Assembly (NCBI RefSeq): GCF_031081985.1
Contig: NZ_JARWSK010000010.1
Location: 1 to 64,000, forward strand
Direction of reading: 5' to 3'
Source of the DNA: Komagataeibacter xylinus
GTDB lineage: Bacteria; Pseudomonadota; Alphaproteobacteria; Acetobacterales; Acetobacteraceae
Length of the DNA stretch: 64,000 nucleotides
The position numbers and the translations under genes are program-made. Of the stretch, positions 34,396 through 61,004 are shown one piece after another. Numbering within the stretch: position 1 is the first letter of the stretch; every line of letters begins with the position of its first letter. The notes under the pieces were generated by a model, which saw only the letters and a program-made list of their open reading frames with translations, searched no databases and was not told the origin of the DNA.

Positions 34396-34403
34396 GCGTT
34401 CTG

Positions 34404-43717: not shown

Positions 43718-44090
43718 CCAGACTGCGGATCGTATCTGTTCTGTATGGAATTCCGCGATGTTGCAAAAACCTGGACACCCGTGATCTGAAAAGAGCTGGC
43801 TGTTGGAACTTGCTGATTTTTAAAGTGAGCAACATCCTTTTTTTGTAATTTTATTCTGGCTGGTTTTAGGGCAAGGAATATAAAATTCCACGATTGTTAA
43901 CGTGATCGAATGTATCAAGCAGGAATAAAATTATGCCATCCATTTTACTGGATTTATTTATCCTGTTTCTGTCAGGATGTTGATGTCTTGAATGCTGATC
44001 GGGTCAGTAACGGTTATCTGTCGCTTTTTTGCCGGTCGAGACAGGCCTGGGTCGATCATTTTCTCATGATAATATTCGGTAAGATAGACA
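43718..44090. other. Gene-free region between OprB and gluconokinase
   Basis: About 370 bases of lower G+C content with T runs near 43838-43850. No supported gene, no clear hairpin. The gluconokinase promoter should be here. Confidence 0.55.
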
Positions 44091-44660
44091 ATGTATGACA
44101 TGGGGCAGGATATGGTTTCATTCTCGCATAGGTTTGGTGAGGCAGGACGACCGTGCGTGCTGATTGTTATGGGGGTATCAGGTTGTGGCAAGAGTACACT
44201 TGCCCAACTGATAGCCGAACGAATGGGCTGGTCCCTTATCGAAGGTGACGACCTGCATCCTCCTGCCAATATTACCCGCATGAGCAATGGCATTCCGTTG
44301 ACCGATATGGATCGCGCACCATGGCTTGATCTGATTGCTGGCCGGATACAGTCATGGCGCGATGCAGGCCAGTGTGGCATCGTGACGTGCTCGTCGCTCA
44401 AGCGCAGTTACCGCAGGCAGATTGGCGGCGATAGCGCGGATGTCTGCTTTGTCTACCTTAAAGGCAGCAGGGAGGACATCATGCCCCGCCTTGCCCAGCG
44501 AACCGGCCATTTCATGCCGGTTGCCATGCTCGACAGCCAGTTCGCCACGCTGGAGGAACCCGACATGCATGAAGAAGTGGTCATGGTGCTGGATGTCAAC
44601 GCCCCGCAGGCGCAACTTGCTGAACTGGCCTGTGCACATCTGGCCCAGCTTTCTCTTTGA
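44091..44660 (+). CDS. gntK: Gluconokinase (GntK/IdnK family)
   Basis: It phosphorylates gluconate to 6-phosphogluconate. The 189-residue protein has the Walker A loop VMGVSGCGKSTLAQLIAERM (residues about 26-45), the gluconate-binding EGDDLHPPANITRMSNGIPL and DRAPWLDL, and the CSSLKRSYR segment, all intact. Start could also be the Met at 44112, next to a GGGGCAGG site. It completes gno, idnD and the 2-keto reductase into a route from idonate and ketogluconates to 6-phosphogluconate, the substrate of gnd in this window. An IS5-family element begins 73 bases after its stop. Confidence 0.92.
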   Translation: MYDMGQDMVSFSHRFGEAGRPCVLIVMGVSGCGKSTLAQLIAERMGWSLIEGDDLHPPANITRMSNGIPLTDMDRAPWLDLIAGRIQSWRDAGQCGIVTCSSLKRSYRRQIGGDSADVCFVYLKGSREDIMPRLAQRTGHFMPVAMLDSQFATLEEPDMHEEVVMVLDVNAPQAQLAELACAHLAQLSL

Positions 44661-44732: not shown

Positions 44733-45575
44733 TTCTAAGGCCCGTTAGGCCTTGAATGACAGAACGGATTGCATGGCTATTTATGATGAGTATGATGCAG
44801 TCTGTCTTTTCCGATACCGCATGGTCTGCGTGGGAGTCTTTGATCGAGGAAGTCCGTCCGAAGCATCGAAAAACCTTCGACGGACGATATCCGCGATTTT
44901 CTGGCGCCATCAGAATGGCGCGAAGTGGCGTGCCCTGCCATCTGAGTTTGGTCCCTGGTGGATTGCTGCACAGTTGTTCATTCGCTGGTCGAAGCTCGGA
45001 GTATGGCAGCGCCTCTTTGAAAAGGTCAAAGACAGGGACCAGGCCCTTGGTATGGTCTTTCTCGATGGCACGACGATCCGTGCACATCATAAGGCGGCTG
45101 GAGCCGCCAAAAAGGGGGATACAATGGACGCCACAGGGATCGTGAGGCGCTTGGCCGCTCACGTGGGGGCTTTGGCACCAAGGTCTGCGTAGCCGCAGAT
45201 GGCCATGGCAGGACTCTTTCCTTCACGCTTTCTCCCGGACAGGCGCACGAACTGCCGTGTGCCTATGCCCTGTTCGATGATCTGCCACACCCACCGATCT
45301 ATGTCGTCTGCGATCGTGGGTATGCCTCACATAAATTTCGTGAAGATCTTTGGAACCGGGAATCTCGTCCCGTCATCCCACCAAGGAAGAATGATCCAGA
45401 AGTCACTTGGCCCAAATGGGCTTACAGACACCAGCACCTAATCGAAAACCTGTGGGCAAGGCTCAAGGAATGGCGGGCTGTCGCGACCCGATACGAGAAA
45501 ACCGCCACATCCTTCCTCTCCGTCATCCTCCTCGCTGCTACAGCAGACTACATCAAGACCTAACAGGCCCTAGAA
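44733..45575 (+). mobile_element. IS5-family insertion sequence with full ends
   Basis: An element of about 843 bases whose ends match: TTCTAAGGCCCGTTAGGCCT begins at 44733 and the inverse of TTCTAGGGCCTGTTAGGTCT ends at 45575. It contains a DDE transposase in several frames. It is clearly related to the truncated copy at 12984-13445, in the same orientation, about 31 kb away. It is a different IS5 subgroup from the element at 211-1058. One frame break in the N-terminal part suggests this copy is inactive or carries a recent error. Confidence 0.86.
44784..45563 (+). pseudogene. IS5-family transposase with an N-terminal frameshift
   Basis: The N-terminus SDTAWSAWESLIEEVRPKHR is read in one frame, then at the A-run near 44868 it must shift to reach NLRRTISAIFWRHQNGAKWR, which continues to the first catalytic Asp in FLDGTTIRAHHKAAG. 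At 45109-45118 (AAAAAGGGGG, heptamer A AAG GGG at 45111-45117) the usual -1 frameshift leads into the C-terminal half: RSRGGFGTKVCVAADG, VVCDRGYASH and LIENLWARLKEW, ending at TAA 45561-45563. The second shift is normal for the family; the first is not, so I call it a pseudogene. A sequencing error at the A-run is the alternative. Confidence 0.75.
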
Positions 45576-46035: not shown

Positions 46036-46704
46036 ATGGAACGCAAACTGATGGGAGTGCCGTTCACCCCCCGCGCCAATATCATCATGACAATATGCCT
46101 GGGCACCATCGCCTGTGTGGTCACCAGTGGCTGCCTGTTGTGGTTTGCATGGCCGTATTCGGATTACGAGCGGCATGTGGGCTGGACTGTCGAACAGCCG
46201 GTTCCCTTCAGCCACCAGCACCATGTGGCTGGCCTGGGGCTTGATTGTCGCTTCTGCCACAGCAGTGTGGAGCGCAGCGCGCAGGCCAGCCTGCCGCCGA
46301 CCTTCACCTGCATGACATGCCATTCACAGATCTGGACGAATGCCGCAGTACTCGCGGCCGTTCGCGACAGTTTGCTAAGGAACACTCCCATGACCTGGCA
46401 ACGCGTGACCAATGTGCCGGACTATGTCTATTTCAACCACAGCATCCATGTCGTCAAAGGGGTAGGCTGCGAAAGCTGTCACGGCAATATTGCTGCCATG
46501 CCACTGACCTACAAGGCCAAAACACTGACGATGCAGTTCTGTGTGAACTGCCATCGCGATCCCGGCCCCAACCTGCGTCCGGCGGAAAACATATTCGACA
46601 CGGACTGGCATCGCGGCCCCGATACACCGGGTCCGGCCGCCCTGATGGCATTATATCATCTTGGCAGGCGAAACCTTACGGAATGCTCGATATGCCACCG
46701 GTAG
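46036..46704 (+). CDS. actA: Alternative complex III subunit A, pentaheme cytochrome c
   Basis: The heme-rich periplasmic subunit of the quinol:cytochrome c oxidoreductase alternative complex III. The 222-residue protein has one N-terminal membrane anchor (residues about 16-38) and exactly five CxxCH motifs: CRFCH, CMTCH, CESCH, CVNCH and CSICH, with extra histidines (SHQHH, FNHSIHV) for sixth ligands, as in ActA. First gene of the operon. A Met at 46051 is an alternative start. The last 22 bases overlap the actB start. Confidence 0.93.
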   Translation: MERKLMGVPFTPRANIIMTICLGTIACVVTSGCLLWFAWPYSDYERHVGWTVEQPVPFSHQHHVAGLGLDCRFCHSSVERSAQASLPPTFTCMTCHSQIWTNAAVLAAVRDSLLRNTPMTWQRVTNVPDYVYFNHSIHVVKGVGCESCHGNIAAMPLTYKAKTLTMQFCVNCHRDPGPNLRPAENIFDTDWHRGPDTPGPAALMALYHLGRRNLTECSICHR

Positions 46705-49565
46705 GGGAAGCGCCACGCACCGCCATCGAACTGTCGGACAGGGCGCTCGTCCGGCATTTTCCCCAGCTTGAAACCGTGCTGTCCCATACGCTGGACCGGC
46801 GGCGTATGCTCAAACTGCTGGGGCTTGCACTGGCCAGTGGAGGGGTGGCAGGCTGTGATCCCGGTACGCCTGACCGGGGTTTCGTCTCGGCCGTGCGCGC
46901 GGCGGAAGGTGTGGTACCCGGCCTTCCCAACATCTACGCCACCGCCCATGTGCGCGATGGTTATGCGGAGGGCATTCTGGTCGCGCACCAGATGGGCCGT
47001 CCGATCAAGATAGAGGGCAATCCTGAGCATCCCAGCAGTCTGGGCGCGACAGATGTGATGGCCCAGGCGCTTGTTTACGATTTTTATGATCCTGATCGCG
47101 CCACAGGCCCGCTCCATAAGGGCATGCCGACTTCATGGCCGGATCTGGCCGCCGCCATGCAGAAGATGCGCGCAACCGCCATGACCCCGCGCGCCGATGG
47201 TACCCATGCAGGCGAGGGACTGCGTATCCTGACCGGTACGATCACGTCTCCTACGCTGGGCCGGGCGATCGAGCAGGTCCTGGCCGCTTTCCCCGGTGCA
47301 GTATGGCATGGATGGGATGCAATCGGGCGTGAGAACGTAACACGGGGCCTTGGTCTGGCCTATGGCATACCTGTCTCGGTTATTGCCGATCCGGGGCAGG
47401 CGGATGTGCTGCTCGCGCTGGATAGTGACCTACTGGACAGCGCGCCAGGGCATCTGAGCCATGCCCGCGCCTTTGCCGCACGCCGCAATCCGGTCAACAG
47501 CACCATGAACCGGCTTTATGCGGTGGAACCCACGCCGTCACTTACAGGCGTTGCGGCGGACCATCGCTTCATTGCGACGCCCGGCATGATGAATGAGGTG
47601 ATCGGACGGCTGTCGGCGCGGCTTTTGCAGAATGAAGCGCCATCGGGCGGGCCTGACTGGCTTGCGCCCGTGGCAGCCGACCTGCGTGCCCACCATGGCC
47701 GGGCCTTCGTGCATCTTGGCCCCGATTACCCGCCCGAGGCACAGGCCGCCGTACTGGCCATGAATGAAGCACTCGGTGGGCGGGGGAAGGTGTTCAGTAT
47801 TGCTGAATCTCCCCTGTACCAGCCAGCCGTTCCCACCAGCACCCTGAAGGCATTGATGGATGACATGGAACGCGGTGCGGTTCAGGCAGTGCTGATACTG
47901 GACGTAAACCCGGCCAGCCAGTCGCCCCGCTTTGCCGCGGCACTGAAGCACGTCTCCACCAGCATTGCCCTGTCAGACCGCCCGCACGAGACGGCACTGG
48001 CCGCACAGTGGCATGTGCCCCTTGCGCATGCGATGGAGGAATGGGGGGACGCACGCGGGCATGATGGTACCGTTGCCCTTATCCAGCCGCAGGCCATGCC
48101 GCTTTATGGCGGAATGAACGCCCTCAGCGCGCTCCATGCCTGTCTGGGCCAGTCATTGCGCCCGGCCATGGACCTGCTGCGCGAAACATGGCGTGACCAA
48201 CTGCCATCCCCGCGTGACTGGCACGATGCGCTGGCGACCGGTGTCATTACGGGAACGGCGTCACGGTTGGTGGATGTGCCGCTGCGACAGGTGGCGATGC
48301 GGGTGGCGTCTCCGGCTCCGTCTCCCCGTACACCGCCCGGGCCTGTGCTGCTGCTGCGGCCCGACCCGTATCTGTGGGATGGGCGCGGGGCCAACAATCC
48401 GTGGCTGCAGGAACTCCCCCGTCCGCTAAGCAAGGTGGTGTGGGACAACCCGCTGCTGATCCCGCCGGATATGGCGCAGGCCATGAACCTGCGCAATGGC
48501 GACAGGGTTATCCTGACCTGCGGCACGACCCGCACGCAGTTGCCTGTATGGATACAGCCGGGGCAGGCAACGGGCTGCGTGGTCGGGTTGCTGGGCTGGG
48601 GCCGCCGCCATGCAGGCGAGACCGGCAGCAACGTAGGCTGCGATCTTTACCCGTTCCGTGAAGCAGAGGGCTTCGTGCGGATCGAGGCGGCACGTGGGGA
48701 CAGCATATCTGTTCCCAGCACGGAGCATCACGCAACACTTATTGATGCCACCCCATCTGATGTGGCGCGGCGCGGCACGCTGGCGCAGTTCCATGATCGC
48801 CCGGACTTCCTTGTCGAAGCTCCCACGCCACAGGACACGCTGTATCGCCGCGAACCCGATGCCCCGGTGGCATGGGGCATGAGCATTGACCTCAATGCCT
48901 GTATTGGCTGCAACGCATGCGTGACCGCCTGCCAGGTGGAGAATAACATACCCGTGGTCGGGCGTGACGAGGTGTTGCGCCAGCGCGAGATGCACTGGTT
49001 GCGGATTGACCGTTTCTACGAAGGAACGGAGCACGCGCCTGACACGTTCTTCCAGCCAATGCTCTGCATGCATTGCGAACAGGCCCCGTGCGAGACCGTC
49101 TGTCCGGTCGGGGCCACGACGCATGATTCTGAAGGCCTGAATGTCATGGTCTATAATCGGTGTATCGGCACGAAATTCTGCTCCAACAACTGTCCCTACA
49201 AGGTCAGGCGGTTCAATTACTTCGCCTTTGCCGCAACCGAAAGCAGGCCCGCCATCAGTCGCAACCCTGATGTATCGGTCAGGGCGCGGGGCGTTATGGA
49301 AAAATGCACGTTCTGCGTGCAGCGCATTGCCCAGGCCCGCATTGCCGCCGATCGCGATGGAACAGGCGAGCACGTGGTCACCGCCTGTCAGGCTGCATGT
49401 CCTACGCGGGCCATAAGCTTCGGAGATATAAATGACCCCAACGCTGAAGTGACGCGCCGCAAGGCCAGTCCGCTCACCTATGCCGCCCTGCCCGAACAGG
49501 GCACGCATCCGCGCGTGACCTATGAGGGGCGCATCCTCAACCGCAATCCGGCCATCCCGTCATGA
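46683..49565 (+). CDS. actB: Alternative complex III subunit B, molybdopterin-like / iron-sulfur fusion
   Basis: A 960-residue protein fusing an N-terminal molybdopterin-oxidoreductase-like domain, which in ActB binds no molybdenum, to a C-terminal iron-sulfur domain (residues about 720-930) with cysteine groups CIGCNACVTACQVENN, CMHCEQAPCETVCPVGA, CIGTKFCSNNCPYK and CTFCVQRIA...CQAACPTRA. The N-terminus has RRRMLKLLGLALASGGVAGC, a Tat-like and lipobox sequence with Cys58, so it is likely a lipoprotein facing the periplasm. Start set at ATG 46683 inside actA; 46692 is possible. It overlaps actC by four bases. Confidence 0.92.
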   Translation: MLDMPPVGEAPRTAIELSDRALVRHFPQLETVLSHTLDRRRMLKLLGLALASGGVAGCDPGTPDRGFVSAVRAAEGVVPGLPNIYATAHVRDGYAEGILVAHQMGRPIKIEGNPEHPSSLGATDVMAQALVYDFYDPDRATGPLHKGMPTSWPDLAAAMQKMRATAMTPRADGTHAGEGLRILTGTITSPTLGRAIEQVLAAFPGAVWHGWDAIGRENVTRGLGLAYGIPVSVIADPGQADVLLALDSDLLDSAPGHLSHARAFAARRNPVNSTMNRLYAVEPTPSLTGVAADHRFIATPGMMNEVIGRLSARLLQNEAPSGGPDWLAPVAADLRAHHGRAFVHLGPDYPPEAQAAVLAMNEALGGRGKVFSIAESPLYQPAVPTSTLKALMDDMERGAVQAVLILDVNPASQSPRFAAALKHVSTSIALSDRPHETALAAQWHVPLAHAMEEWGDARGHDGTVALIQPQAMPLYGGMNALSALHACLGQSLRPAMDLLRETWRDQLPSPRDWHDALATGVITGTASRLVDVPLRQVAMRVASPAPSPRTPPGPVLLLRPDPYLWDGRGANNPWLQELPRPLSKVVWDNPLLIPPDMAQAMNLRNGDRVILTCGTTRTQLPVWIQPGQATGCVVGLLGWGRRHAGETGSNVGCDLYPFREAEGFVRIEAARGDSISVPSTEHHATLIDATPSDVARRGTLAQFHDRPDFLVEAPTPQDTLYRREPDAPVAWGMSIDLNACIGCNACVTACQVENNIPVVGRDEVLRQREMHWLRIDRFYEGTEHAPDTFFQPMLCMHCEQAPCETVCPVGATTHDSEGLNVMVYNRCIGTKFCSNNCPYKVRRFNYFAFAATESRPAISRNPDVSVRARGVMEKCTFCVQRIAQARIAADRDGTGEHVVTACQAACPTRAISFGDINDPNAEVTRRKASPLTYAALPEQGTHPRVTYEGRILNRNPAIPS

Positions 49566-50932
49566 CGGCGGAAACAGGTGCCAAGGTGGAAGATGGCCCT
49601 CTCATCTTTCCCACCGAGACACCACACTCCCTGACGGAACATATCTGCGCCACCACCCTGCATGAGGGAGAGGACGGCTGGACACCGCTATGGTGGTGGC
49701 TGGGCCTTGGCTTTGCCCTGTCGCTGCTGGGCATGGGGGTCATCTCCGTTGCCTGGCTGTTTTATGCGGGCCTGGGCATATGGGGCATCGACTGGCCCGT
49801 GGCGTGGGGGTTTGACATCCTCAATTACGTCTGGTGGATCGCCATTGCCTCGGGCGGGACGTTTATTTCGGCCCTGTTCTTCGTGCTGCGCGCGCCGTGG
49901 CGTACCTCGCTCAACCGGCTGGCCGAAAGCCTGACCCTGTGTGCCGCCCTATGTGCGGCCATATTTCCCATCCTGCATCTGGGGCGGCCACGGTTTTTCT
50001 ACTGGCTGTTTCCCTATCCCAATACCATGGGGCTGTGGGCGCAGTTCCGCAGTCCGCTGGTGTGGGATTTTTTTGCAATCCTGGCCTATGTGCTGTGTTC
50101 GATCGTGTTCTGGTATTTCGGGGTGCTGCCCGATCTGGCTATCCTGCGCGACCGGGCGCAACGGCGCTGGCAGCAGGTATTCTATGGCGTGCTGGCGCTG
50201 GGGTTTCGTGGCTCGGGGCGGCAGTGGCGGCATTACCAGCCCGTATATGGGGTCATGGCAGCCCTTATGGCACCGCTGGTGGTTTCGGTTCACAGTATTG
50301 TCGGCATGGACTTTGCAGGGGGTGCAACGCCCGGCTGGCATTCAACCCAGTTCCCGCCGTTCTTTGTATTCGGGGCTGCCCTGTCGGGTTTTGCCATCGT
50401 GCTGCTGGCGGTCATACCGCTCCGCCCGGCCATGGGGCTGCAGCCCTACATCACGCCGCGGCACATCAACATACTGGGGTGCCTGCTGCTCACCAGCAGC
50501 CTGTGCGTGGCCTATGCCTATGTCATGGATGTATTTTCAACCTATTACGGCCCCGACCCGGCGGACAGGGTCATGTTCGCCTTCCGGCTGCATGGTCTGT
50601 ATGCGCCCATCTACTGGGGCACCATCATGCTCAATATCGTGTTCCCGCAACTGTTATGGTGGCGGGCGATCCGGCTGAAACAGCCGGTGGTATGGCTGAT
50701 CTGCCTGGGTGTGCTCATCGGCATGTGGCTGGAACGCTTCCAGATCATCGTGACCAGTCTGGCACGCACACAGCTCCCATCCGCCTGGGGGCAGTACACG
50801 CCCACAGTGTGGGAATGGAGCCTGCTGTGCGGCAGTATCGGGCTGTTCCTGACCACCTTCCTCCTGCTCCTGCGTTTCATGCCCATGCTTGCCATAGCCG
50901 AGATGCGCAGCATGCTTGGTAACCGGCCATGA
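49562..50932 (+). CDS. actC: Alternative complex III subunit C, NrfD-like quinol-site membrane subunit
   Basis: A 456-residue NrfD/PsrC-family protein with about ten membrane helices, beginning at WWWLGLGFALSLLGMGVISV. ActC is one of two homologous membrane subunits and holds a quinol-binding site near its periplasmic face; conserved polar stretches such as GGTFISALFFVLR, HLGRPRFFYWLFPYPN, SVHSIVGMDFA and LWLERF-like MWLERFQI are present. Both ends overlap neighbours by four bases (ATGA), showing tight translational coupling. Confidence 0.93.
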   Translation: MTAETGAKVEDGPLIFPTETPHSLTEHICATTLHEGEDGWTPLWWWLGLGFALSLLGMGVISVAWLFYAGLGIWGIDWPVAWGFDILNYVWWIAIASGGTFISALFFVLRAPWRTSLNRLAESLTLCAALCAAIFPILHLGRPRFFYWLFPYPNTMGLWAQFRSPLVWDFFAILAYVLCSIVFWYFGVLPDLAILRDRAQRRWQQVFYGVLALGFRGSGRQWRHYQPVYGVMAALMAPLVVSVHSIVGMDFAGGATPGWHSTQFPPFFVFGAALSGFAIVLLAVIPLRPAMGLQPYITPRHINILGCLLLTSSLCVAYAYVMDVFSTYYGPDPADRVMFAFRLHGLYAPIYWGTIMLNIVFPQLLWWRAIRLKQPVVWLICLGVLIGMWLERFQIIVTSLARTQLPSAWGQYTPTVWEWSLLCGSIGLFLTTFLLLLRFMPMLAIAEMRSMLGNRP

Positions 50933-51417
50933 TCGTCGCGGCCTTTGCTACCGAAAGCGCACTGCATGAAGCCGTGGCCGAACTACGGCGTGACCGGGCC
51001 TGCAGGGTAGAAACCTACGGCGCGGCCCCGCCACCGGGAATGGTCACATCCTCCATCGTGCCATTGCTCATGCTGGGTGGGGGCATGGTGGGCGCCATGG
51101 GTGGCTTTGGCATGCAGGTCTACGCCACGACACTGGCCTATCCGCAGAATATTGGCGGCAGGCCTGATCTTTCATGGCCTTCCTACATTCCGGCCAGTTT
51201 TGAACTGGCGGTCATGGGGGCCATCCTGGCGGGCATTATCGGTTACTTCATGACCGTGCGCCTGCCACGTCTTTACGACCCTGTGGATGAGGCCGAGAGC
51301 ATGCAGGGTGTTATGACAGGCGGCCATGTGGCTGTGGTGCAAGGGACCGATAACGCGGCGGTGCTGGATACGCTTGCCCGTCACGGCGCGCTGAGGATTG
51401 AGGAAATCGAGCCATGA
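50929..51417 (+). CDS. actD: Alternative complex III subunit D (DUF3341)
   Basis: A 162-residue DUF3341 protein with two membrane helices (VPLLMLGGGMVGAMGGFGMQ and ELAVMGAILAGIIGYFMTVR) flanked by a ferredoxin-like N-terminal stretch (VAAFATESALHEAVAEL) and a cytoplasmic C-terminus. ActD contacts ActC and is a structural subunit. The RLPRLYDPVDE segment after helix two is a family hallmark. Overlaps actC and actE by four bases each. Confidence 0.9.
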   Translation: MIVAAFATESALHEAVAELRRDRACRVETYGAAPPPGMVTSSIVPLLMLGGGMVGAMGGFGMQVYATTLAYPQNIGGRPDLSWPSYIPASFELAVMGAILAGIIGYFMTVRLPRLYDPVDEAESMQGVMTGGHVAVVQGTDNAAVLDTLARHGALRIEEIEP

Positions 51418-51917
51418 GGTGTGCGTGGCCGCTGCATGTCCTGCCCGGCGCACTGCTGCTTCTGGCCGCCGGGTGCGATGATATGTCGAAGCAGCACAAG
51501 GAGAACCCTTATGCCAGCCCCCGCAGCGCGCCGGCGGACGTGGCGCAGGGCAGCGTGGAATATCATGATACCTTCCATCCTGCGCCCGGCCTGACGCCAG
51601 CCCTGCTGCAGCGCGGGCGCAGTGAATACCAGGCATTCTGCGCGCCCTGCCATGCCCGGACGGGGCAGGGCGACGGCATGGTGGTGCAACGGGGCTTTCC
51701 CGCCCCGCTGCCCCTTGCCACCGCCCCGACACGCAGCGCCACGCCGGAGCAGCTTTATGCCATCATCACATCGGGGCAGGGCGTGATGTATGGCTTTGCC
51801 CAACGGATCATGCCCGATGACCGCTGGGCCATAGTGGCCTATCTGTACGCGCTGCGCCGGAGTCAACAGGCCACGCTGGCAGACATGACCCCCGCCCAGC
51901 GGGCCATCCAGCCATGA
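51414..51917 (+). CDS. actE: Alternative complex III subunit E, monoheme cytochrome c lipoprotein
   Basis: A 167-residue periplasmic lipoprotein cytochrome. The signal ends in LLLLAAGC, with lipidated Cys21; the single heme site is CAPCH (about residue 80), followed by TGQGDGMVVQRG and a Met axial-ligand candidate in RIMPDDRW. ActE receives electrons from ActA and passes them to the oxidase or a soluble cytochrome. Overlaps actD and actF by four bases. Confidence 0.92.
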   Translation: MRCAWPLHVLPGALLLLAAGCDDMSKQHKENPYASPRSAPADVAQGSVEYHDTFHPAPGLTPALLQRGRSEYQAFCAPCHARTGQGDGMVVQRGFPAPLPLATAPTRSATPEQLYAIITSGQGVMYGFAQRIMPDDRWAIVAYLYALRRSQQATLADMTPAQRAIQP

Positions 51918-52963
51918 ACCGTGTCCGGTGTATGGCACTTGTGGTTGCACCCATTGCGCTGGCGGGTGTGATGGCTGATGCCATCTGGATGCCTGTCGCC
52001 ACATTCCCGGCATGGCTTGCGGTCGGGGCGGCATGGCTTGGCTGGCCGCTTGGCAGCATGGCTCTCATGCTGGTGCATGCCCTTACGGGCGGGCGCTGGG
52101 GGGAAATCCTGCATCCCGCCCTGCGAGCGGGGATTGCAACGCTCCCGCTGGGGCTGCCTGCGCTGGGGGGTATCATGCTGGGTGCACGCTACCTGTACCC
52201 GTGGCTGCACCCGGACAGGGCAATGCCGCTGGCAAACAGCTTCTACCTCAACATGCCTGCAGCCCTGACGCGGGCTGGGATCTATGTGGTTGCGTGGGGC
52301 GCACTGGGGCTGATCTGCCTGCGCGGCCGGGGTCTGGAGCGGGTAGCGCCTGCCGGTCTGATCGTACTGGGTTTTACATCCGGCTTTGCGGCAATTGACC
52401 TTACGGAATCGTTTGATCCGCATTTCAGTTCCAGCGCTTACGGTCTTGTGGCTTCTGCCGGGGCCGTGCTGCTGGCATTCGCAATCGGGATCATGCTGGA
52501 GGCGGCCCGGGCCAGTACGGCGGAATTACGGGATCTGGCGCGCCTGCTGCTGGGGCTTACTGTGCTGTGGGCCTATCTGGATTTCATGCAGTTCCTGATC
52601 GTGTGGCAGTCCAACCTGCCGGTGGAGGCCGCATGGTACGGCCCGCGCCTGCGCGGCGGGTGGGGGGTGGTGGCACTCTGTATTGTGGGGCTGCACTTTA
52701 TCCTGCCGTTCGTGCTGCTGGCCCTGCCGCGGCTGCAGGGGCTGCGGCCCGTCATCGTGGCGGTGGCAGGGTTACTGGTAGGCATGGAGGCGGTGCGCAA
52801 TTTCTGGCTGGTGCTGCCAGCCTGCCTCCCCGCACAGGTGGCGCTGCCGGTGCTGCTGTCGCTTGCCTTCTTCGGCAGTGGCAGTGTTTTTCTGGCTTTC
52901 CGTCCCGGCATACAGGAGCCCTTCGTGGCATCGAAACCCGAGCAGAGGGATGTCCATGTCTGA
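51914..52963 (+). CDS. actF: Alternative complex III subunit F, NrfD-like membrane subunit
   Basis: A 349-residue protein with about ten membrane helices, homologous in fold to ActC but shorter. Features include HALTGGRWGEILHPALRAG, YLNMPAALTRAGIYVVAWG, and WAYLDFMQFLIVWQSNLPVEAAWY, a block typical of ActF. Its C-terminal tail overlaps the start of the next small gene by eight bases. It completes the ActABCDEF set; no ActG was recognised unless the next gene replaces it. Confidence 0.91.
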   Translation: MNRVRCMALVVAPIALAGVMADAIWMPVATFPAWLAVGAAWLGWPLGSMALMLVHALTGGRWGEILHPALRAGIATLPLGLPALGGIMLGARYLYPWLHPDRAMPLANSFYLNMPAALTRAGIYVVAWGALGLICLRGRGLERVAPAGLIVLGFTSGFAAIDLTESFDPHFSSSAYGLVASAGAVLLAFAIGIMLEAARASTAELRDLARLLLGLTVLWAYLDFMQFLIVWQSNLPVEAAWYGPRLRGGWGVVALCIVGLHFILPFVLLALPRLQGLRPVIVAVAGLLVGMEAVRNFWLVLPACLPAQVALPVLLSLAFFGSGSVFLAFRPGIQEPFVASKPEQRDVHV

Positions 52964-53333
52964 GCAGCATCAAAGCGGACAGCCACCGGGGCATGAAACC
53001 CGTGATGTTTCCTTTCGCGCAGTCATGATCGGGGGGGTGGCCATCGGTCTGGCGGTGGGTGGGCTTGTGGTGGCGGCGGATATGCTGTTTCCGCAAAAAT
53101 CGCTTGATCGCCTGCTCAAGCCGCCTTTTCCGGTCGTTGCCGAACCCCGGCTGCAATCCGATCCGGTAGCGGACATGGCGGCATTCGCGGCACATGAGGA
53201 ACATGTCCTGAACAGTTTTGGCTGGACCGACAAAAGCAGGGGTATCGGCCATATTCCGATTGATCAGGCCATGCAGGAAATCGCCCGCGAAGGCATTCCC
53301 GGCTGGCCGGCAGATGAAAGGGCCGCACCATGA
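52956..53333 (+). CDS. Small membrane protein of the ACIII-oxidase operon, uncharacterised
   Basis: A 125-residue protein with one membrane helix (VMIGGVAIGLAVGGLVVAAD, about residues 24-43) and a C-terminal periplasmic part containing FGWTDKSRGIGHIPIDQAMQ, then EIAREGIPGWP. I recall similar W-x-D--G--IPI-AM---A--G-P motifs in short proteins coded beside ACIII and caa3 genes, but know no assigned function. AGAGGG lies seven bases before the ATG at 52956. It overlaps both actF and the SCO gene, between the complex III and complex IV halves, so an assembly or bridging role is a reasonable guess, no more. Confidence 0.8.
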   Translation: MSEQHQSGQPPGHETRDVSFRAVMIGGVAIGLAVGGLVVAADMLFPQKSLDRLLKPPFPVVAEPRLQSDPVADMAAFAAHEEHVLNSFGWTDKSRGIGHIPIDQAMQEIAREGIPGWPADERAAP

Positions 53334-54139
53334 TGGCGCACCATGCGGCCCTGTTGCGCCATTACAGGGTGCTGGTTATCGTACTGGCCTGTGCCGCACC
53401 GGCATGGTGGATACAGCCCGCTGCGGCGGAAGATGCATTCCAGGCGCTGGCTTTTACCCCACGGCAGGGCACGGTACTGCCGCTTGATGCACCCTTTACC
53501 GATACATCAGGCCAGACCCGGCCACTCGGGGCCTTTCTGGGCCATGGGGCCACGATTATTGCAATGGGATATTATGCCTGTCCCAATATGTGTGAACTCG
53601 AACGGACCGACCTGCTGGACGCGCTGGCGCGGGGTGGCCTGAAAACACCGGGTGATTATACGCTGCTGGTTGTCAGTATTGATCCTGCGGAAACACGCTT
53701 CACGGCGCAGCAGGCACTGGCGGAAGATCTGGCGCGGTTTCCCGACGCCGGAGCAGGGCAGGGATGGCATTTCGTAACCGGTACGCCCGCAAGCATCCGG
53801 CGCCTGTCGCGCGCGGTGGGGTTCCACGCGCGCTATGACGAAAAACTGCACCAGTACCTGCACCCCATGGGGCTGGTATTCATAACCCCGGCAGGTACTG
53901 TATCGGGGTATGTGCTGGGTGTCGGCTACCAGCCGGGTGATGTACGGCAGGCCCTGGCCCATGCCGCGCGTGGTGAGCAGGCCCGCGCCGCGCCCATCCT
54001 GCTTTTATGCTTTCATTATGATGAAACGACCGGCCGTTATACGCTGGCAGTAGAAAAACTGCTGAAACTCGGCGGTGTGCTGACCGTGCTGATGCTGGGC
54101 ACCCTGCTGGGCATGGCCCACTGGCGAGGGCAGCGATGA
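53330..54139 (+). CDS. SCO1/SenC-family copper chaperone for cytochrome oxidase
   Basis: A 269-residue thioredoxin-like protein that delivers copper to the CuA site. An N-terminal signal/anchor ends near AEDAFQ (residue about 33); the copper-binding cysteines are in YYACPNMCELE (CxxxC), with the ligand His in QYLHPMGLVFITP. A further C-terminal helix (LGGVLTVLMLGTLLGMAHW) makes it a double-anchored SCO variant. Its start overlaps the small protein and its stop overlaps coxB (ATGA), exactly where a CuA chaperone is expected. Confidence 0.9.
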   Translation: MMAHHAALLRHYRVLVIVLACAAPAWWIQPAAAEDAFQALAFTPRQGTVLPLDAPFTDTSGQTRPLGAFLGHGATIIAMGYYACPNMCELERTDLLDALARGGLKTPGDYTLLVVSIDPAETRFTAQQALAEDLARFPDAGAGQGWHFVTGTPASIRRLSRAVGFHARYDEKLHQYLHPMGLVFITPAGTVSGYVLGVGYQPGDVRQALAHAARGEQARAAPILLLCFHYDETTGRYTLAVEKLLKLGGVLTVLMLGTLLGMAHWRGQR

Positions 54140-55134
54140 ACTGGCTGCCCGAAGCCTCGGCCCATGCCAGCCGGGTCGATATCCTGCTGGCGGGGTTGCT
54201 GCTCATCAGCCTGGCGGTGCTCGGGCTGGTATTCGGGCTGATGATGCTCAACATCATCCGCTTCCGTGTAGGCAGCAGGGTGCCCGTATCGGCGGAGACG
54301 GTGGCCCATAAAAGCTGGCGTTTCGAGATTGGCTGGACCGCGACCACGCTGGCTGTTTTCTTCGCGCTGTTTGTGTGGGCGGCACGGCTTTACGTACTGG
54401 GGTTCCAGCCGCCGCCCGGTGCAATCCAGATTTATGTCACGGGCAAGCAGTGGATGTGGAAGGTCCAGTATCCCGGTGGCCAGCGCGAGATCAATGCGCT
54501 GCATGTGCCTCTGGGGCGGCCGGTGCAACTTCTGCTCACGTCGGAAGATGTCATTCATGATTTCTCGATCCCGGTGCTGCGCATCAAGCACGACGTGCTG
54601 CCCGGCCGGTACCAGAGCCTGTGGTTCATTGCGACACAGGCAGGGGCATTTCGTTTTTACTGCACGCAGTTCTGTGGCATCGGGCACTCGCGCATGACCG
54701 GCACCCTGATTGTTCTGACCCCGACCGATTATGCCAACTGGCTGGGCCGGACCCCGGCCAGCGGCAGCCTTGCGACAAAGGGGGAAGCCCTGTTCATCCA
54801 TAACGGATGCAGCGGCTGCCATGTATCGCAGCCTTATGCCCCCGATGCGGACGATACCAGCCGCGCGCCTTCCATGGTGGGACTGTATGGCAGCGAGATC
54901 ACTGGGGCGGATGGGCAGCACATACGGGTGGATAACGCATTCCTGCACGATGCCATCCTTCATATCGGCCCCGCGCACGGGCAGGCGGCAGGCTATGCCA
55001 CCCGGATGCCATCCTATCGCGGTGTGCTGGGAGAAGAGGATCTGGCCGCCCTGATTGCCTATCTCCAGACCCTCTCACCATCCCGGTCGTCGGGCATGGG
55101 CGTATCGGCCGTCAGTGCACGTAAAGGGAACTGA
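54136..55134 (+). CDS. coxB: caa3-type cytochrome c oxidase subunit II with fused cytochrome c
   Basis: A 332-residue subunit II: two membrane helices (residues about 17-42 and 65-88), the cupredoxin domain with the aromatic KQWMWKVQYPGG region, CuA ligands in VIHDFSIP and CTQFCGIGHSRM, then a fused C-terminal cytochrome c with heme site CSGCH and Met candidate in RMPSYRG. The fused heme defines caa3-type oxidases, which take electrons directly from ACIII or cytochrome c. The CuA loop has Gln between the cysteines where most oxidases have Glu. Stop lies four bases before coxA. Confidence 0.93.
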   Translation: MNWLPEASAHASRVDILLAGLLLISLAVLGLVFGLMMLNIIRFRVGSRVPVSAETVAHKSWRFEIGWTATTLAVFFALFVWAARLYVLGFQPPPGAIQIYVTGKQWMWKVQYPGGQREINALHVPLGRPVQLLLTSEDVIHDFSIPVLRIKHDVLPGRYQSLWFIATQAGAFRFYCTQFCGIGHSRMTGTLIVLTPTDYANWLGRTPASGSLATKGEALFIHNGCSGCHVSQPYAPDADDTSRAPSMVGLYGSEITGADGQHIRVDNAFLHDAILHIGPAHGQAAGYATRMPSYRGVLGEEDLAALIAYLQTLSPSRSSGMGVSAVSARKGN

Positions 55135-55138
55135 TACC

Positions 55139-56788
55139 ATGGCACCCACACCCGGCCTGCAAATCATGCAGCGCAGCTATCTGTGGCAGGATGGCACGGT
55201 GCGCTCATGGCTGCTGACAACCGACCATAAACGGATCGCGCTGTTATACATGGCCTCGATCACCGCGTTTTTCGTGCTTGGCAGCTTTGGTGCGGCCCTG
55301 ATCCGGCTGCATCTGATTTCCCCCACCGGGGCCATCCTGTCCGATGAGACCTACAGCCGCATGTTCACCATGCATGGCATTGTCATGGTCTGGCTGTTCC
55401 TTGTGCCTTCCATACCGGTCACGCTGGGCAATTTTCTCGTACCCCTCATGCTGGGGGCAAAGGACCTGGCTTTTCCACGCCTGAACCTGATCAGCTGGTA
55501 TCTGTTCATCATGGCTGGCGCACTGGTGGTCTACGGGCTGTTCCGTGGTGGGTTGGAAACGGGATGGACCTTCTATACCCCGCTTTCCACCGATTATACG
55601 CAAGGTCGCGTGCTGCCGGTCGTGGCCGGGGTATTCCTGAGCGGATTTTCCTCCATTGCCACGGGGGTGAACTTCATCATCAGCATCCACCAGCTCCGTG
55701 CGCCGGGGCTGACATGGTACCGGCTGCCGCTCATGCTCTGGGCGCTTTATGCCACCAGCGTCATTTTCGTGCTGGCAACACCGGTGCTCAGCATTACGCT
55801 GCTCCTGCTGGCGTTCGAGCATTTCTTCCATGTCGGTGTATTTGATCCCGCGCTGGGGGGAGACCCGCTCCTGTTCCAGCACCTGTTCTGGTTCTATTCC
55901 CACCCAGCGGTCTACATCATGATCCTGCCGGGCATGGGCGTGGTCAGCGAAGTTGTGAGTACGTTCTGCCACAAGCCGGTTTTTGGCTACCGGTTCGTGG
56001 CGTGGTCATCCATTTCCATTGCGGCTATCGGCTTTCTGGTCTGGGGGCACCACATGTTCGTGGCTGGCACATCGCTCTATGCGGCGGTTGTGTTTTCCAT
56101 GCTGAGTTTTCTGGTATCGGTGCCATCGGCCATCAAGGTTTTCAACTGGCTGGGCACCATGCATGGGGGGGCCATAAGGCTTGATGCGCCCATGCTTTAT
56201 GCCATGGGGTTTATCGGGCTTTTTACGGTGGGCGGCCTTACGGGGCTGTTTCTGGCTTCCCTGGCAAGCGACGTGCATCTGACCCAGACATATTTCGTGG
56301 TGGCGCATTTCCACTACATCATGGTCGGCGGCATGGTATCAGCCTATTTTGCCGGGCTGCATTACTGGTGGCCCAAGATAACAGGGCGCATGTACCCCGA
56401 AATGTGGGGGCGCACGGCGGCAGCACTGCTGTTCTTTGGCTTCAACCTGACATTCTTCCCCCAGTTCATTCTGGGCTATGAGGGCATGCCGCGCCGGTAC
56501 GCGACCTATCCCGCGCAGTTTCAGGTGCTGAATGTCCTGTCGTCTGCCGGGGCCAGCATTCTTGCGCTGGCCTATATCCTGCCATTGATCTACTTCACCT
56601 GGGCGCTGTTCCGCGGTGCGCGTGCAACCGACAATCCATGGCAGGCCACCGGGCTGGAATGGCGGATATCCTCTCCTCCGCCTGTGGAAAATTTCATCAC
56701 CCCGCCAGTCGTAACCCATGAAGCCTATGATTACGCCGCACTGGATCACCCGGACGCTGCCCCGCGTGCGGAGGCCCCGCATGTCTGA
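55139..56788 (+). CDS. coxA: Cytochrome c oxidase subunit I, A2-type heme-copper oxidase
   Basis: The catalytic subunit, 549 residues and twelve core helices. Heme ligand His in MFTMHGIVMVWLF, the CuB region WFYSHPAVYIMILPGMG, the paired CuB histidines in WGHHMFVAG, and heme a/a3 ligands in VVAHFHYIMVGG are all present. The GHPEVY glutamate of A1 oxidases is replaced by the YSHPAVY form, which marks the A2 subfamily where Tyr-Ser does the proton-loading job. It pumps protons while reducing oxygen. The ATG at 55139 follows AAGGGA; the longer frame overlaps coxB. Confidence 0.94.
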   Translation: MAPTPGLQIMQRSYLWQDGTVRSWLLTTDHKRIALLYMASITAFFVLGSFGAALIRLHLISPTGAILSDETYSRMFTMHGIVMVWLFLVPSIPVTLGNFLVPLMLGAKDLAFPRLNLISWYLFIMAGALVVYGLFRGGLETGWTFYTPLSTDYTQGRVLPVVAGVFLSGFSSIATGVNFIISIHQLRAPGLTWYRLPLMLWALYATSVIFVLATPVLSITLLLLAFEHFFHVGVFDPALGGDPLLFQHLFWFYSHPAVYIMILPGMGVVSEVVSTFCHKPVFGYRFVAWSSISIAAIGFLVWGHHMFVAGTSLYAAVVFSMLSFLVSVPSAIKVFNWLGTMHGGAIRLDAPMLYAMGFIGLFTVGGLTGLFLASLASDVHLTQTYFVVAHFHYIMVGGMVSAYFAGLHYWWPKITGRMYPEMWGRTAAALLFFGFNLTFFPQFILGYEGMPRRYATYPAQFQVLNVLSSAGASILALAYILPLIYFTWALFRGARATDNPWQATGLEWRISSPPPVENFITPPVVTHEAYDYAALDHPDAAPRAEAPHV

Positions 56789-57413
56789 GCACCTTGCGCC
56801 CTATGACAGCCCGCAGCACCGCGATGAAACGGCAATAGCCGGCATGTGGCTGTTCCTTGCCAGCGAAATACTGCTGTTTGGCGGCCTGTTCCTGATTTTT
56901 GTGGTCTATTCCCACACCCGTGCCGCAGGCTGGGCGCTGGGGGTCAGGCATACCAGCCTTACGATTGGCGGCATCAACACCGCACTCCTGCTGACCAGCA
57001 GCATGGTCTACACCCTTGGGGTGGAAGCCGCCCGCAATGAAAACGCTCGTGGCACCATCCTTGCCGGGCTGGGTGCCGCCGGGTTGGGTGTGACCTTCCT
57101 GTGCCTGAAAGGATGGGAATGGCATACGGAACTGGACGAACACCTGTTCCCCGGACCCGGATTTGCCCTTGGCGGCCTGCAGGCTGGCGGGGCGCAGTTA
57201 TTCTACAGTTTCTATTTCCTGTCCACCGCGCTGCATGGCCTGCATATGCTGGTAGGGATCGGGCTGATCGCGTGGGTCTGCCTGCGGGTTTACCGGGGCA
57301 GGGGCGCATCGCTCCGGGTCTTACCGGTGGAGGTTGTCGGCCTTTACTGGAGCTTTGTCGATCTGGTCTGGGTCCTGCTTTTCCCTGTTTTATACCTGAT
57401 CGGGCGGGTGTGA
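56781..57413 (+). CDS. coxC: Cytochrome c oxidase subunit III
   Basis: A 210-residue, five-helix subunit III: ETAIAGMWLFLASEILLFGG, GGINTALLLTSSMVYTLGVE, the KGWEWHTELDEHLFPG loop, LFYSFYFLSTALHGLHMLVG and VVGLYWSFVDLVWVLLFPVL are family blocks. It begins inside the end of coxA (eight-base overlap) and its stop shares one base with the coxD start. Confidence 0.93.
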   Translation: MSEHLAPYDSPQHRDETAIAGMWLFLASEILLFGGLFLIFVVYSHTRAAGWALGVRHTSLTIGGINTALLLTSSMVYTLGVEAARNENARGTILAGLGAAGLGVTFLCLKGWEWHTELDEHLFPGPGFALGGLQAGGAQLFYSFYFLSTALHGLHMLVGIGLIAWVCLRVYRGRGASLRVLPVEVVGLYWSFVDLVWVLLFPVLYLIGRV

Positions 57414-57727
57414 TGGTTCGCGTCCTGTCATGCTGGGTGGTGGTGCTGCTGTTGCTGGCGGTGGAACTGCTGCTGAGTGCAGCAGGGGTGAACTGGGGCA
57501 TTGGCGTGTGTGCCGGGGTGATGGCGCTGCTGGTTGCCTACGGCTTCATGCGTATGACGCGCGCCCCGGCGCTGGCACTCATCTTTGCCATTGGCGGCCT
57601 GTTCTGGCTGTCCATCCTGCTTGCACTGGGCAGCCTGGACAGTTTTACGCGAACCAATTTCCCCGTGGGCGACACGTTATCTTCCACCACGCAGAACCCG
57701 CGCCCACCGCCGGATACGGCGCCCTGA
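57413..57727 (+). CDS. coxD: Cytochrome c oxidase subunit IV-like small membrane protein
   Basis: A 104-residue protein with three membrane helices (LSCWVVVLLLLAVELLLSAA, IGVCAGVMALLVAYGFM and LALIFAIGGLFWLSILLAL) ending in a Pro/Ser/Thr-rich tail. Size, helix number and place after subunit III fit the bacterial subunit IV of caa3 oxidases (caa3_CtaG-unrelated COX4_pro type). It starts on the last base of coxC's stop (TGATG). Last gene of the operon. Confidence 0.82.
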   Translation: MVRVLSCWVVVLLLLAVELLLSAAGVNWGIGVCAGVMALLVAYGFMRMTRAPALALIFAIGGLFWLSILLALGSLDSFTRTNFPVGDTLSSTTQNPRPPPDTAP

Positions 57728-57839
57728 TACAAAATTATCTGTCCCGCTGCACAAACCGGGCCGAGCCGTGGCCGTTATCTGAAGCCGGACATCCCATGAA
57801 CCACAGGGCATCATAACCGACAGGAAACAGGCAGGTGGC

Positions 57840-60800
57840 ATGAATGCAATTGTTCAGCTGGCACTTGCCCGTCCCTATACATTTATCGTGATGGCCATCC
57901 TGATCGCCATGGCCGGTGTGCTTTCCGCCATCCGCACGCCGGAGGACATCTTCCCCGATATCGGCATTCCCGTCATTGCCGTGGCGTGGACCTACAGCAA
58001 CCTTTCACCGCAGGACATGTCCGGGCGCATCGTACTGCCGTTCCAGCGCACGCTGACCACTACGGTCAACAATATCGAACATATCGAGGGACAGTCGCTG
58101 ACGGGCATCGGGGTGATAAAGATATTCTTCCAGCCCGGCACCGATATCCGCATTGCCAATACGCAGGTCACCGCCATTGCCCAGACCATCCTGCGCCAGC
58201 TGCCTGTGGGCACCACGCCGCCGCTGATCCTGAACTACAATGCCTCCACCGTGCCGATCGTCCAGCTTGCCCTGTCGGGCGAGGGCATGACCGAACAGCA
58301 GCTTTATGATTACGGCTTCAACTTCATCCGTAACCGGCTGGTAACTGTGCCGGGCGCTGCCCTGCCGTACCCCTATGGCGGCCGCGTGCGCCAGATCCAG
58401 ATGGATCTCGACCCAGGCAAGCTGCAGTCCCGTGGCGTATCGGCCCAGGACGTGGGCAACGCCCTGACCACACAGACACAGATCACCCCCGCAGGTTTTG
58501 TAAAGATCGGTGAATATCAGTATAATTTCAGGCTGAATAACGCGCCCCTTTCGGTCGAACTGCTCAACATGCTGCCTGTGCGCACGGTCAACGGCGCCGT
58601 GGTGCGTGTGCGCGATGTTGCCCACGTGCGTGATGGGGCCACACCGCAGCAGAACGTGGTGCATGTGGATGGCCAGCGCTCCGCACTCATGACCGTACTG
58701 AAATCGGGCGCTACCTCCACCATCGCCATCGTGGCGGGGATCAAGGCGATGATCCCTGATGCGACACGCGGCCTGCCAAAGCAGCTCAAGCTCCGCCCTG
58801 TCAACGATCAGTCGCTGTTTGTCCGGGCCGCCGTCAACGGGGTGATGCGCGAGGGGGCGATTGCCGCGGGGCTGACCAGCCTCATGATCCTGCTTTTTCT
58901 GGGGTCGTGGCGGTCCACGCTGATTGTGGCGACATCCATCCCGTTATCGGTCATGGGGGCGATTGCAGCGTTGTCCGCGCTGGGCGAGACGCTGAATATC
59001 ATGACACTCGGCGGCCTTGCGCTGGCCGTCGGCATTCTGGTCGATGAGGCGACAGTCACGATCGAGAATATCGAGCGCCATCTGGAAATGGGCAAGGACG
59101 TGCATGCCGCCATTGTTGATGGATCAGGCGAGATCATCGTCCCGGCCTTTCTTTCGCTCATCTGCATCTGCATCGTGTTCGTGCCGATGTTCTACCTGCC
59201 GGGGGTCGCGGGTTTCCTGTTCGTGCCGATGGCGCTGTCGGTCATGTTCGCCATGGTCATGTCCTTCATCCTGTCGCGCACGCTCGTGCCGACCATGGCC
59301 ATGTTCCTGCTGCGCCCGCATGCGGATGCAAAGGGGCATAAGGAGAATATCTTCACACGCTTCCAGCATGGTTTCGAGCGGTATTTCGAGGCGCTGCGTG
59401 CCCACTACAGTGCGCTTTTAGAAAGCATTCTGGACCATCGTGGCCGGTTTGTGGCAGGCTTCCTGTGCTTTGCCGTGCTGAGCATGGGGCTGCTCCCGTT
59501 CCTTGGCCGCAACTTCTTTCCGCAGGTCGATGCGGGCACGATGACTTTGCATGTGCGTGGCTCCACAGGCATGCGCATAGAAGAGACATCAGCCCTGTTC
59601 CAGCGTATCGAGAAGCAGATCCGCCAGCGGATTCCGGCAGGTGAGATTGATTCCATCGCCGATAATATCGGGCTACCCACCAGCGCCATCAACACCGCCT
59701 ATAATGCATCGGGCACCATCGGGCCGCAGGATGGGGACATCCTTGTCGCGCTGAAGGAAAACCACCGCCCGACCGGGCAGTACATCCATATCCTGCGCCG
59801 CGAGCTGCCCAGGGAATTCCCCGAAGCCAGCTTTGCCTTCCTGCCATCGGACATCACGACCCAGATCCTCAATTTCGGCGTGCCGGCACCGATCGACATT
59901 CAGGTCTCCGGCCCCAACCCCGATGAGACGCGACAGTTCGCAGGCCGCATATTGCGCGCCATACGCGGCATTGACGGTCTGGTCGATACGCGCATCCAGC
60001 AGCCCGGTCATTACCCTGAACTGCGTTTTGATGCCGACCGCACCCGCATCAACCAGCTTGGCCTGACGGAAGGTGATGTCACCACATCCATTGCCACCTC
60101 CATTGCCGGCACCGTGCAGACCGCCCCGCTGTACTGGCTGGACCCGCACAGCATGGTCACATACCCCATTGCGGTGCAGATGCCTGAATACCGGATCAGT
60201 TCGCTGGCGGATATCATCGGCCTGCCTGTAACCGGGCTTTCAACCACCCAGGTGCAGGTGCTCGGTGCCCTTGGCACGATTACGCGCGGTACGACCTCAC
60301 CGGTCGAGGCGCAGTATGATATCCGCTCTCTGGTCGATGTTTTTGCCGGTGGGGACGGGCGCGACCTCGGCGCCATTGCCTCGGACGTACAGGCGGCCCT
60401 GCACCGGCTTGAACACGACCGGCCCGATACAGTTACGGTCACGCTGCGCGGCCAGTACCAGGCCATGACAGCTGCCTTCTCGGGCATGGGGTTTGGCCTG
60501 CTGGGCGCGATCGTGCTGATCTACCTGCTTATCGTCATCAATTTCCAGAGCTGGACCGATCCGTGCATTGTTGTCCTTGCACTGCCGGGAGCGCTGGCGG
60601 GGATATGCTGGATGCTGTTTGCAACGCATACTCCTCTTTCCGTGCCTGCGCTGACGGGCGCGATCATGTGCATGGGGGTGGCGACGGCCAACTCCATCCT
60701 TGTCATCACCTTCTGCCGCGAGCAGCTGGCGGAGCATGGGGATGCGCTCAGGGCAGCCCTGACGGCGGGCAGTACACGCCTTCGGCCCGTCATCATGACG

Positions 60801-61004
60801 GCGCTGGCCATGGTGATCGGCATGCTGCCCATGGCGCTGGGGCTGGGCGAGGGGGGCGAGCAGAATGCGCCGCTGGGGCGGGCCGTCATTGGCGGCCTGA
60901 TATTTGCCACCTGTGCCTCCCTGTTTTTTGTGCCTACGCTTTTCGCCATCATCTACGACCGGCGTGCATGCCACGGCCATGACGGGGCACGGGCCCATGG
61001 CTGA
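57840..61004 (+). CDS. RND efflux pump, HAE1-like, system 2
   Basis: A 1054-residue pump paralogous to the one at 9362-12553. It starts MNAIVQLALARPYTFIVMAI and has the same large periplasmic loops and twelve helices. TM4 reads LAVGILVDEATVTIENI, so one aspartate of the AcrB-type pair is Glu here. The second half includes TGAIMCMGVATANSILVITF and GRAVIGGLIFATCASLFFVP. AGGTGG sits just upstream of the ATG. First gene of a pump-adaptor-channel set on the plus strand, following coxD by 112 bases. Substrate unknown. Confidence 0.92.
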   Translation: MNAIVQLALARPYTFIVMAILIAMAGVLSAIRTPEDIFPDIGIPVIAVAWTYSNLSPQDMSGRIVLPFQRTLTTTVNNIEHIEGQSLTGIGVIKIFFQPGTDIRIANTQVTAIAQTILRQLPVGTTPPLILNYNASTVPIVQLALSGEGMTEQQLYDYGFNFIRNRLVTVPGAALPYPYGGRVRQIQMDLDPGKLQSRGVSAQDVGNALTTQTQITPAGFVKIGEYQYNFRLNNAPLSVELLNMLPVRTVNGAVVRVRDVAHVRDGATPQQNVVHVDGQRSALMTVLKSGATSTIAIVAGIKAMIPDATRGLPKQLKLRPVNDQSLFVRAAVNGVMREGAIAAGLTSLMILLFLGSWRSTLIVATSIPLSVMGAIAALSALGETLNIMTLGGLALAVGILVDEATVTIENIERHLEMGKDVHAAIVDGSGEIIVPAFLSLICICIVFVPMFYLPGVAGFLFVPMALSVMFAMVMSFILSRTLVPTMAMFLLRPHADAKGHKENIFTRFQHGFERYFEALRAHYSALLESILDHRGRFVAGFLCFAVLSMGLLPFLGRNFFPQVDAGTMTLHVRGSTGMRIEETSALFQRIEKQIRQRIPAGEIDSIADNIGLPTSAINTAYNASGTIGPQDGDILVALKENHRPTGQYIHILRRELPREFPEASFAFLPSDITTQILNFGVPAPIDIQVSGPNPDETRQFAGRILRAIRGIDGLVDTRIQQPGHYPELRFDADRTRINQLGLTEGDVTTSIATSIAGTVQTAPLYWLDPHSMVTYPIAVQMPEYRISSLADIIGLPVTGLSTTQVQVLGALGTITRGTTSPVEAQYDIRSLVDVFAGGDGRDLGAIASDVQAALHRLEHDRPDTVTVTLRGQYQAMTAAFSGMGFGLLGAIVLIYLLIVINFQSWTDPCIVVLALPGALAGICWMLFATHTPLSVPALTGAIMCMGVATANSILVITFCREQLAEHGDALRAALTAGSTRLRPVIMTALAMVIGMLPMALGLGEGGEQNAPLGRAVIGGLIFATCASLFFVPTLFAIIYDRRACHGHDGARAHG

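Follow-up and report, generated by a model that had tools for sequence, protein, structure and literature searches.

The operons for cytochrome c oxidase (COX) that are joined to an alternative complex III (ACIII) have been defined as subtype a-I (PMC4013037) and usually encode A2-type oxidases (PMC6431628), and in 2023 an A2-type COX of this subtype was described as "present in some acetous taxa" (PMC10715153). The literature is cited throughout by PubMed Central (PMC) accession. A supercomplex of ACIII and a caa3 oxidase has been reported in Rhodothermus marinus (PMC5928083), and in Acidobacteria superoperons of ACIII and A2 caa3 genes are transcribed down to nanomolar oxygen (PMC8407424). 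Here we describe an operon of this kind in a 64,000-nucleotide stretch of Komagataeibacter xylinus DNA (contig NZ_JARWSK010000010.1), referred to below as the window. Judged from its sequence, the operon very probably represents an intact ACIII plus caa3 module of subtype a-I that is optional within the genus. Systems of this kind are already known, and what is added here is the patchy and shifting presence of one of them among closely related species.

The ACIII cluster with two NrfD-like genes, the SCO gene and the A2 subunit I gene are common to the window and to subtype a-I as outlined in the three papers on that subtype. No basic difference was found, the compact overlaps between genes and a coxD product of 104 amino acids (aa) being local detail. 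Compared with R. marinus, ActA to ActF, the quinol-site and coupling residues and the oxygen reductase genes downstream are alike; however, the window organism additionally has a bc1 complex and presumably uses ubiquinone. In the superoperons of Acidobacteria the A2 caa3 genes come after those for ACIII, as in the window, but these bacteria belong to a different phylum. The closest solved structure for both ActB and ActC is the ACIII of Protein Data Bank (PDB) entry 8K9E, which includes an ActG subunit resembled by the seventh gene product of the window. Entry 8K9E comes from Roseiflexus castenholzii and 6F0K from R. marinus; 6LOD and 6BTM are further solved ACIII entries.

Gene content and cofactor motifs

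All twelve genes that a preliminary description of the window had placed at 46036-57727 on the forward strand are present, in the order and at the coordinates given there (Table 1). They are actABCDEF, the gene of an ActG-like small membrane protein (orf7), SCO and coxBACD, all on one strand and all with open frames. That almost every junction overlaps was also confirmed, with overlaps of 1 to 22 nucleotides (nt) at 10 of the 11 junctions; the sole exception is coxB/coxA, where 4 nt separate the two genes. The overlaps are 4 nt at actB/actC, actC/actD, actD/actE, actE/actF, orf7/SCO and SCO/coxB, 8 nt at actF/orf7 and coxA/coxC, 1 nt at coxC/coxD, and 13 nt at actA/actB (22 nt if actB starts at 46683). 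In-frame ATG codons of actB at 46692 and 46683 are both conserved in four relatives compared; position 46701, from which the ActB frame was searched, was rejected as a start because the codon there is GTA. The overlaps and the closer ATG led us to prefer ATG 55139 to TTG 55055 as the start of coxA, and ATG 57413 (to 57727) to a longer reading from GTG 57101 for coxD. The coxC start is ATG 56781, with 210 codons aligned.

Nine of the twelve proteins passed the Pfam cut-off. The others were ActF and CoxD, for which the Pfam search gave no match (CoxD being searched as the longer GTG frame), and Orf7. ActF matched the four solved ActF chains, 6lod_F (E = 6e-32), 6f0k_F (6e-24), 8k9e_F (5e-22) and 6btm_F (6e-12). 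Together with the recurrence of the gene order in relatives, these Pfam and structural matches exclude chance resemblance.

The best solved matches for ActB were 8k9e_B (E = 1.6e-224), 6lod_B, 6f0k_B and 6btm_B, and a domain-level test showed that the single chain holds both the molybdopterin-like and the 4Fe-4S domains. ActA has five CxxCH motifs in all 18 operons compared. With the NrfD-like pair of ActC and ActF plus ActD, the ACIII set is complete. The residues proposed in R. marinus for the quinol site (His139, Asp169 and Asp253) and for coupling (Ser245 of ActC, Glu122 of ActD and Tyr284 of ActF), with positions as given in PMC5928083, are all identical in the window proteins, as counted by hand from the alignments; the first three lie in ActC, and Tyr284 was aligned to 6f0k_F. 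Orf7, previously described only as a small membrane protein, appears by sequence to be ActG-like. As a single sequence it matched the ActG chain 8k9e_G weakly (E = 0.0027), and as a profile built with 11 relatives it reached E = 3.5e-6 with this chain, its only PDB match at E up to 1, over residues 35-115 only.

The YSHP motif marks A2-type heme-copper oxidases. It is present in CoxA (as FYSHPAV) in place of the A1 glutamate, and the best solved match of CoxA is an A2 enzyme, the caa3 oxidase 2yev_A. CoxB, best matched by the corresponding 2yev_B, has the CuA ligands (CTQFCGIGHSRM) and one CxxCH motif (CSGCH). In SCO a C-terminal membrane helix was called by eye. Genomes are designated below by G numbers, G000 being the window genome, in samples of 19 species for the genus and 249 genomes for the family. 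All motifs checked (CuA, A2, heme c and SCO) are intact in the six congeneric carriers of the operon, two of which (G250 and G253) have operons cut by contig ends. Pfam families, solved-chain matches and cofactor motifs bear out the assignment as ACIII plus an A2-type caa3 oxidase.

Table 1. Window coordinates of the operon genes and of two flanking features
Feature	Positions	Strand	Description	Basis
actA	46036..46704	+	pentaheme cytochrome c subunit, 222 aa	five CxxCH; Cytochrome_C7 and QrcA-like matches
actB	46692..49565	+	molybdopterin-like domain fused to 4Fe-4S domain	solved ACIII ActB chains
actC	49562..50932	+	NrfD-like quinol-binding membrane subunit	NrfD Pfam; 8k9e_C, 6lod_C, 6f0k_C, 6btm_C
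actD	50929..51417	+		PF11821 ActD, E 2.7e-34; aligned to 6f0k_D
actE	51414..51917	+	monoheme cytochrome c subunit	Cytochrome_CBB3 Pfam; one CxxCH
actF	51914..52963	+	second NrfD-like membrane subunit	solved ActF chains
orf7	52956..53333	+	ActG-like small membrane protein, 125 aa	similarity to 8k9e_G
SCO	53330..54139	+	copper chaperone	SCO1-SenC Pfam, E 1.2e-6; CPNMC motif (CxxxC pair)
coxB	54136..55134	+	subunit II, CuA site and fused cytochrome c	COX2 and Cytochrom_C Pfam
coxA	55139..56788	+	A2-type heme-copper oxidase subunit I	COX1 Pfam, E 1e-140
coxC	56781..57413	+	subunit III	COX3 Pfam, E 8.7e-12 (searched from 56718)
coxD	57413..57727	+	small subunit IV-like protein, 104 aa	operon position; homologues at same place in relatives
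RND gene	57840..61004	+	resistance-nodulation-division (RND) efflux pump; site-marking flank outside the respiratory module	ACR_tran Pfam, E 2e-193
IS5-family element	44735..45575		insertion sequence (IS) about 460 bp upstream of actA	DUF4096 transposase Pfam

Distribution in the genus and family

ActB was found in six of the 19 genus species (G000, G060, G253, G262, G250 and G184) and A2 CoxA in the same six, the two never occurring apart; the other 13 congeners lack the operon. The ActD family is present in 53 of the 249 sampled Acetobacteraceae genomes, 51 of them above the cut-off. The comparison of gene order covered 20 additional genomes of the family, the other five carriers in the genus and six named records. 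Within the family, coxB and coxA come after the act genes in these stretches except in G021, where cox is reversed relative to act, and in G195 and G186, where only a coxA-like piece lies before act and no cox genes were found behind ACIII. A stretch (L045) of a Roseiflexus metagenome-assembled genome (MAG) likewise showed act genes with no cox genes after them. More distant CoxA proteins (35-38%) occur in G202, G245, G003, G021 and Microvirga.

The same operon is present in Gluconacetobacter takamatsuzukensis and Gluconacetobacter tumulisoli, with an ActB identity of 70-71%. A scan for related loci gave at least 592 matches, of which the best 80 were listed; almost all of these belonged to other groups, and the Acetobacteraceae loci among the matches listed were the two from Gluconacetobacter and one from an Acidisphaera MAG. 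The co-occurrence of actB and coxA that the preliminary description had suggested looking for is thus found in the genus, and the order recurs in most family stretches; the acetic-acid-bacterium setting that it had proposed is also supported. As to novelty, the system has been described in print at the genome level but is not universal, occurring in six of the 19 species in the genus. Among the literature matches listed there was no biochemistry of ACIII-caa3 in acetic acid bacteria, most subscription journals lying outside the literature covered.

Loss, movement and probable exchange of the operon

Orthologues of the RND gene were used to locate the operon site in other species. The operon lies directly upstream of this gene in G000, G060 and G253, and elsewhere in G262, G250 and G184. 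In the operon-free genomes G249, G255 and G251 the two flanks (window 38350 and 57719-57817) are joined, 164-344 bp apart. At the RND site a 3' end of coxD is left in the operon-free G257 (78 bp) and in G250 (38 bp), where the operon is elsewhere, with local alignment scores of 79 and 43 against best-of-300 shuffle scores of 27 and 28. These coxD ends are deletion scars. In G262 and G250 the similarity between the relocated copy and the window extends to 57824 and 57813, respectively, inside the gap before the RND gene; because the matches extend into this gap, both copies probably derive from an RND-adjacent one. The operon behaves as an optional module, lost by deletion in some lineages and moved in others.

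The IS5-family element upstream of actA is matched at 84-88% on the DNA level by plasmid-borne elements of Komagataeibacter, Acetobacter and Novacetimonas, some of which are annotated as IS5 family; one Acetobacter plasmid matches as well as those of Komagataeibacter. IS5-type DNA also lies near the operon in G253 (in the opposite orientation) and G262 (a fragment). Such DNA is a possible means of operon movement. Sugar-acid-type genes (a zinc dehydrogenase, a short-chain dehydrogenase/reductase and a small kinase) are found near the operon at window 33461-44660 and in G250 (L130, 3600-8500), in an order that differs between the two loci and with intervening IS DNA.

Taken over all of the operon, silent divergence is 0.32 between G000 and G262, 0.31 between G000 and G250 and 0.25 between G262 and G250. 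Elsewhere, G000 and G262 differ by 0.15 in the RND gene, 0.14 in rpoB, 0.05 in cyoB and 0.15 in ctaA, and G250 differs from either of them by 0.24-0.49 in rpoB, cyoB and ctaA and by 0.32-0.33 in the RND gene. The ratio of operon to RND divergence reaches 2.08 in the pair G000-G262, against 0.78-1.40 in the other 14 carrier pairs. At least one exchange is likely, since purely vertical descent would not produce the G000-G262 ratio, and the operon has probably been transferred between species at least once. A protein tree of actB, actC, coxB and coxA gives the grouping of the operon tree, in which the coxC rows are faulty. Tree shape alone was dropped as evidence of transfer into G250, because the trees disagree on its position.

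A wider but tentative suggestion, which we hold to be somewhat less probable than its opposite, is that the ACIII-caa3 chain as a whole forms a respiratory cassette open to exchange, which takes along the intergenic tail of its former site as it moves between Komagataeibacter-type species that otherwise have one common chain ending in a quinol oxidase. Several observations weigh against the history of deletion and exchange set out here. Scars were seen at only two of the seven RND sites tested, those of G249, G255, G251, G262 and G184 having no remnant above the shuffles. The case for exchange depends mainly on one outlying ratio. The tree of rpoB, cyoB and ctaA, in which the G257 branch length is unreliable owing to its ctaA row, places G250 apart from G000 and G262, but its deep forks have only 84-85% bootstrap support and values of 86-92 in the Shimodaira-Hasegawa-like approximate likelihood ratio test; moreover, the RpoB protein tree groups G250, G000 and G262 together, as the operon tree does. 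As a side observation on the marker genes, the rpoB match of G236 is in two pieces (C1:3931113-3932791), perhaps through an assembly error or an insertion.

Respiratory context and predicted function

A COX1 of CyoB length (687-693 aa), identified as CyoB by NCBIfam in the window genome, is encoded in all 19 genus species. The operon thus stands beside a CyoB-type oxidase, which supports the earlier proposal that it may provide a second route to oxygen. Cytochrome c1 of the bc1 complex is also found in all 19, although the bc1 of acetous taxa has been doubted (PMC10715153). The heme A synthase CtaA is equally universal (split over two contigs in G260) and so is not specific evidence that heme A serves the caa3 oxidase.

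A 471-aa COX1-like protein is encoded on the minus strand beside the heme O synthase gene ctaB in the window organism's own genome (C11, about 139996-141411; L135:9997-11412), and COX1 matches of this class (463-494 aa) occur in all 19 congeners. We rejected it as a third working oxidase, as three of its six metal-binding histidines are replaced in the alignment and a similar protein is already published, the Acetobacter "deranged COX1" beside CtaB without any conserved metal-binding residues (PMC10715153). One of the 19 congeners, G261, has a further COX1 homologue (L248; G261:C37, about 13662-14912), which lies in a cluster together with a CcoO-like sequence and genes for diheme cytochromes and by eye resembles a cbb3 oxidase.

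Homology suggests how the chain would work. Ubiquinol would be oxidized by ActB and ActC. The hemes of ActA and ActE would then relay the electrons, with or without cytochrome c as an intermediate, to the cytochrome c domain of CoxB, from which they would travel by way of the CoxB CuA site to heme a and the heme a3-CuB site in CoxA for the reduction of oxygen. ActC, ActF and CoxA would pump protons, and SCO would load copper. With R. marinus as precedent, a physical ACIII-caa3 supercomplex may fairly be expected in the window organism as well.

The ratio of nonsynonymous to synonymous substitution rates (dN/dS) was compared over the 15 pairs that six carriers form. It was 0.04-0.37 across all twelve genes taken singly and 0.13-0.18 when they were combined, with the lowest values in coxA (0.04-0.08). 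Such purifying values, well below 1 for every gene, point to a working enzyme. They speak, as do the open frames of the window and the intact motifs of the six carriers, against the alternative of a silent relic that has stayed intact by chance but is unexpressed or unassembled, like the ligand-poor COX1 beside ctaB. That protein shows that deranged respiratory genes do persist in acetic acid bacteria, most congeners lack the operon, and no promoter signal above chance was found before actA; even so, we consider a relic improbable. It is less probable still that ACIII and the oxidase are mere neighbours, with ACIII feeding another acceptor or bc1 feeding caa3. The invariable pairing of ActB with A2 CoxA in the genus and the order of act, coxB and coxA in other family stretches (reversed in G021) argue otherwise, despite the presence of bc1 in every species, the relatives in which ACIII was not seen to be followed by cox genes (G195, G186 and Roseiflexus) and the ability of ACIII to reduce soluble carriers also (PMC5928083). 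An intact, linked ACIII-caa3 module remains the preferred reading.

Roles at low oxygen or on acetate, also raised in the preliminary description, found no support here. FNR-like boxes with up to two mismatches are at chance level in the window (20 found against 21 expected), and none lies within 600 bases before actA. An FNR-type oxygen switch was rejected on the basis of these numbers. By analogy with the R. marinus supercomplex and the Acidobacteria superoperons, a low-oxygen role is possible.

The aa3 oxidase has been said to be "absent in AAB" (acetic acid bacteria; PMC4007555), AAB have been termed oxidase-negative (PMC9171043), and only COX subunit I was found in Acetobacter pasteurianus 386B (PMC3751514). 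The preliminary description's premise that many AAB have no cytochrome c oxidase is therefore so stated in the first two papers, but the surprise is undone by PMC10715153 and by a table note, citing Matsutani 2014, according to which A. pasteurianus and Granulibacter do have a cytochrome c oxidase (PMC4596401). If the operon is active, the statement of absence in PMC4007555 is contradicted by the window genome.

The interest of the operon is modest and lies in its distribution and physiology. Accounts of vinegar and cellulose bacteria usually give them a respiration ending in quinol oxidases, and a full, proton-efficient cytochrome c route in six of 19 species of one genus would have consequences for growth yield, oxygen demand and product output. 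Pairs of close species with and without the operon offer a way to test the role of the puzzling bc1 complex and, if the operon is indeed an exchangeable cassette, would amount to a natural experiment on bc1 and cytochrome c in bacteria thought to be without a cytochrome c oxidase.

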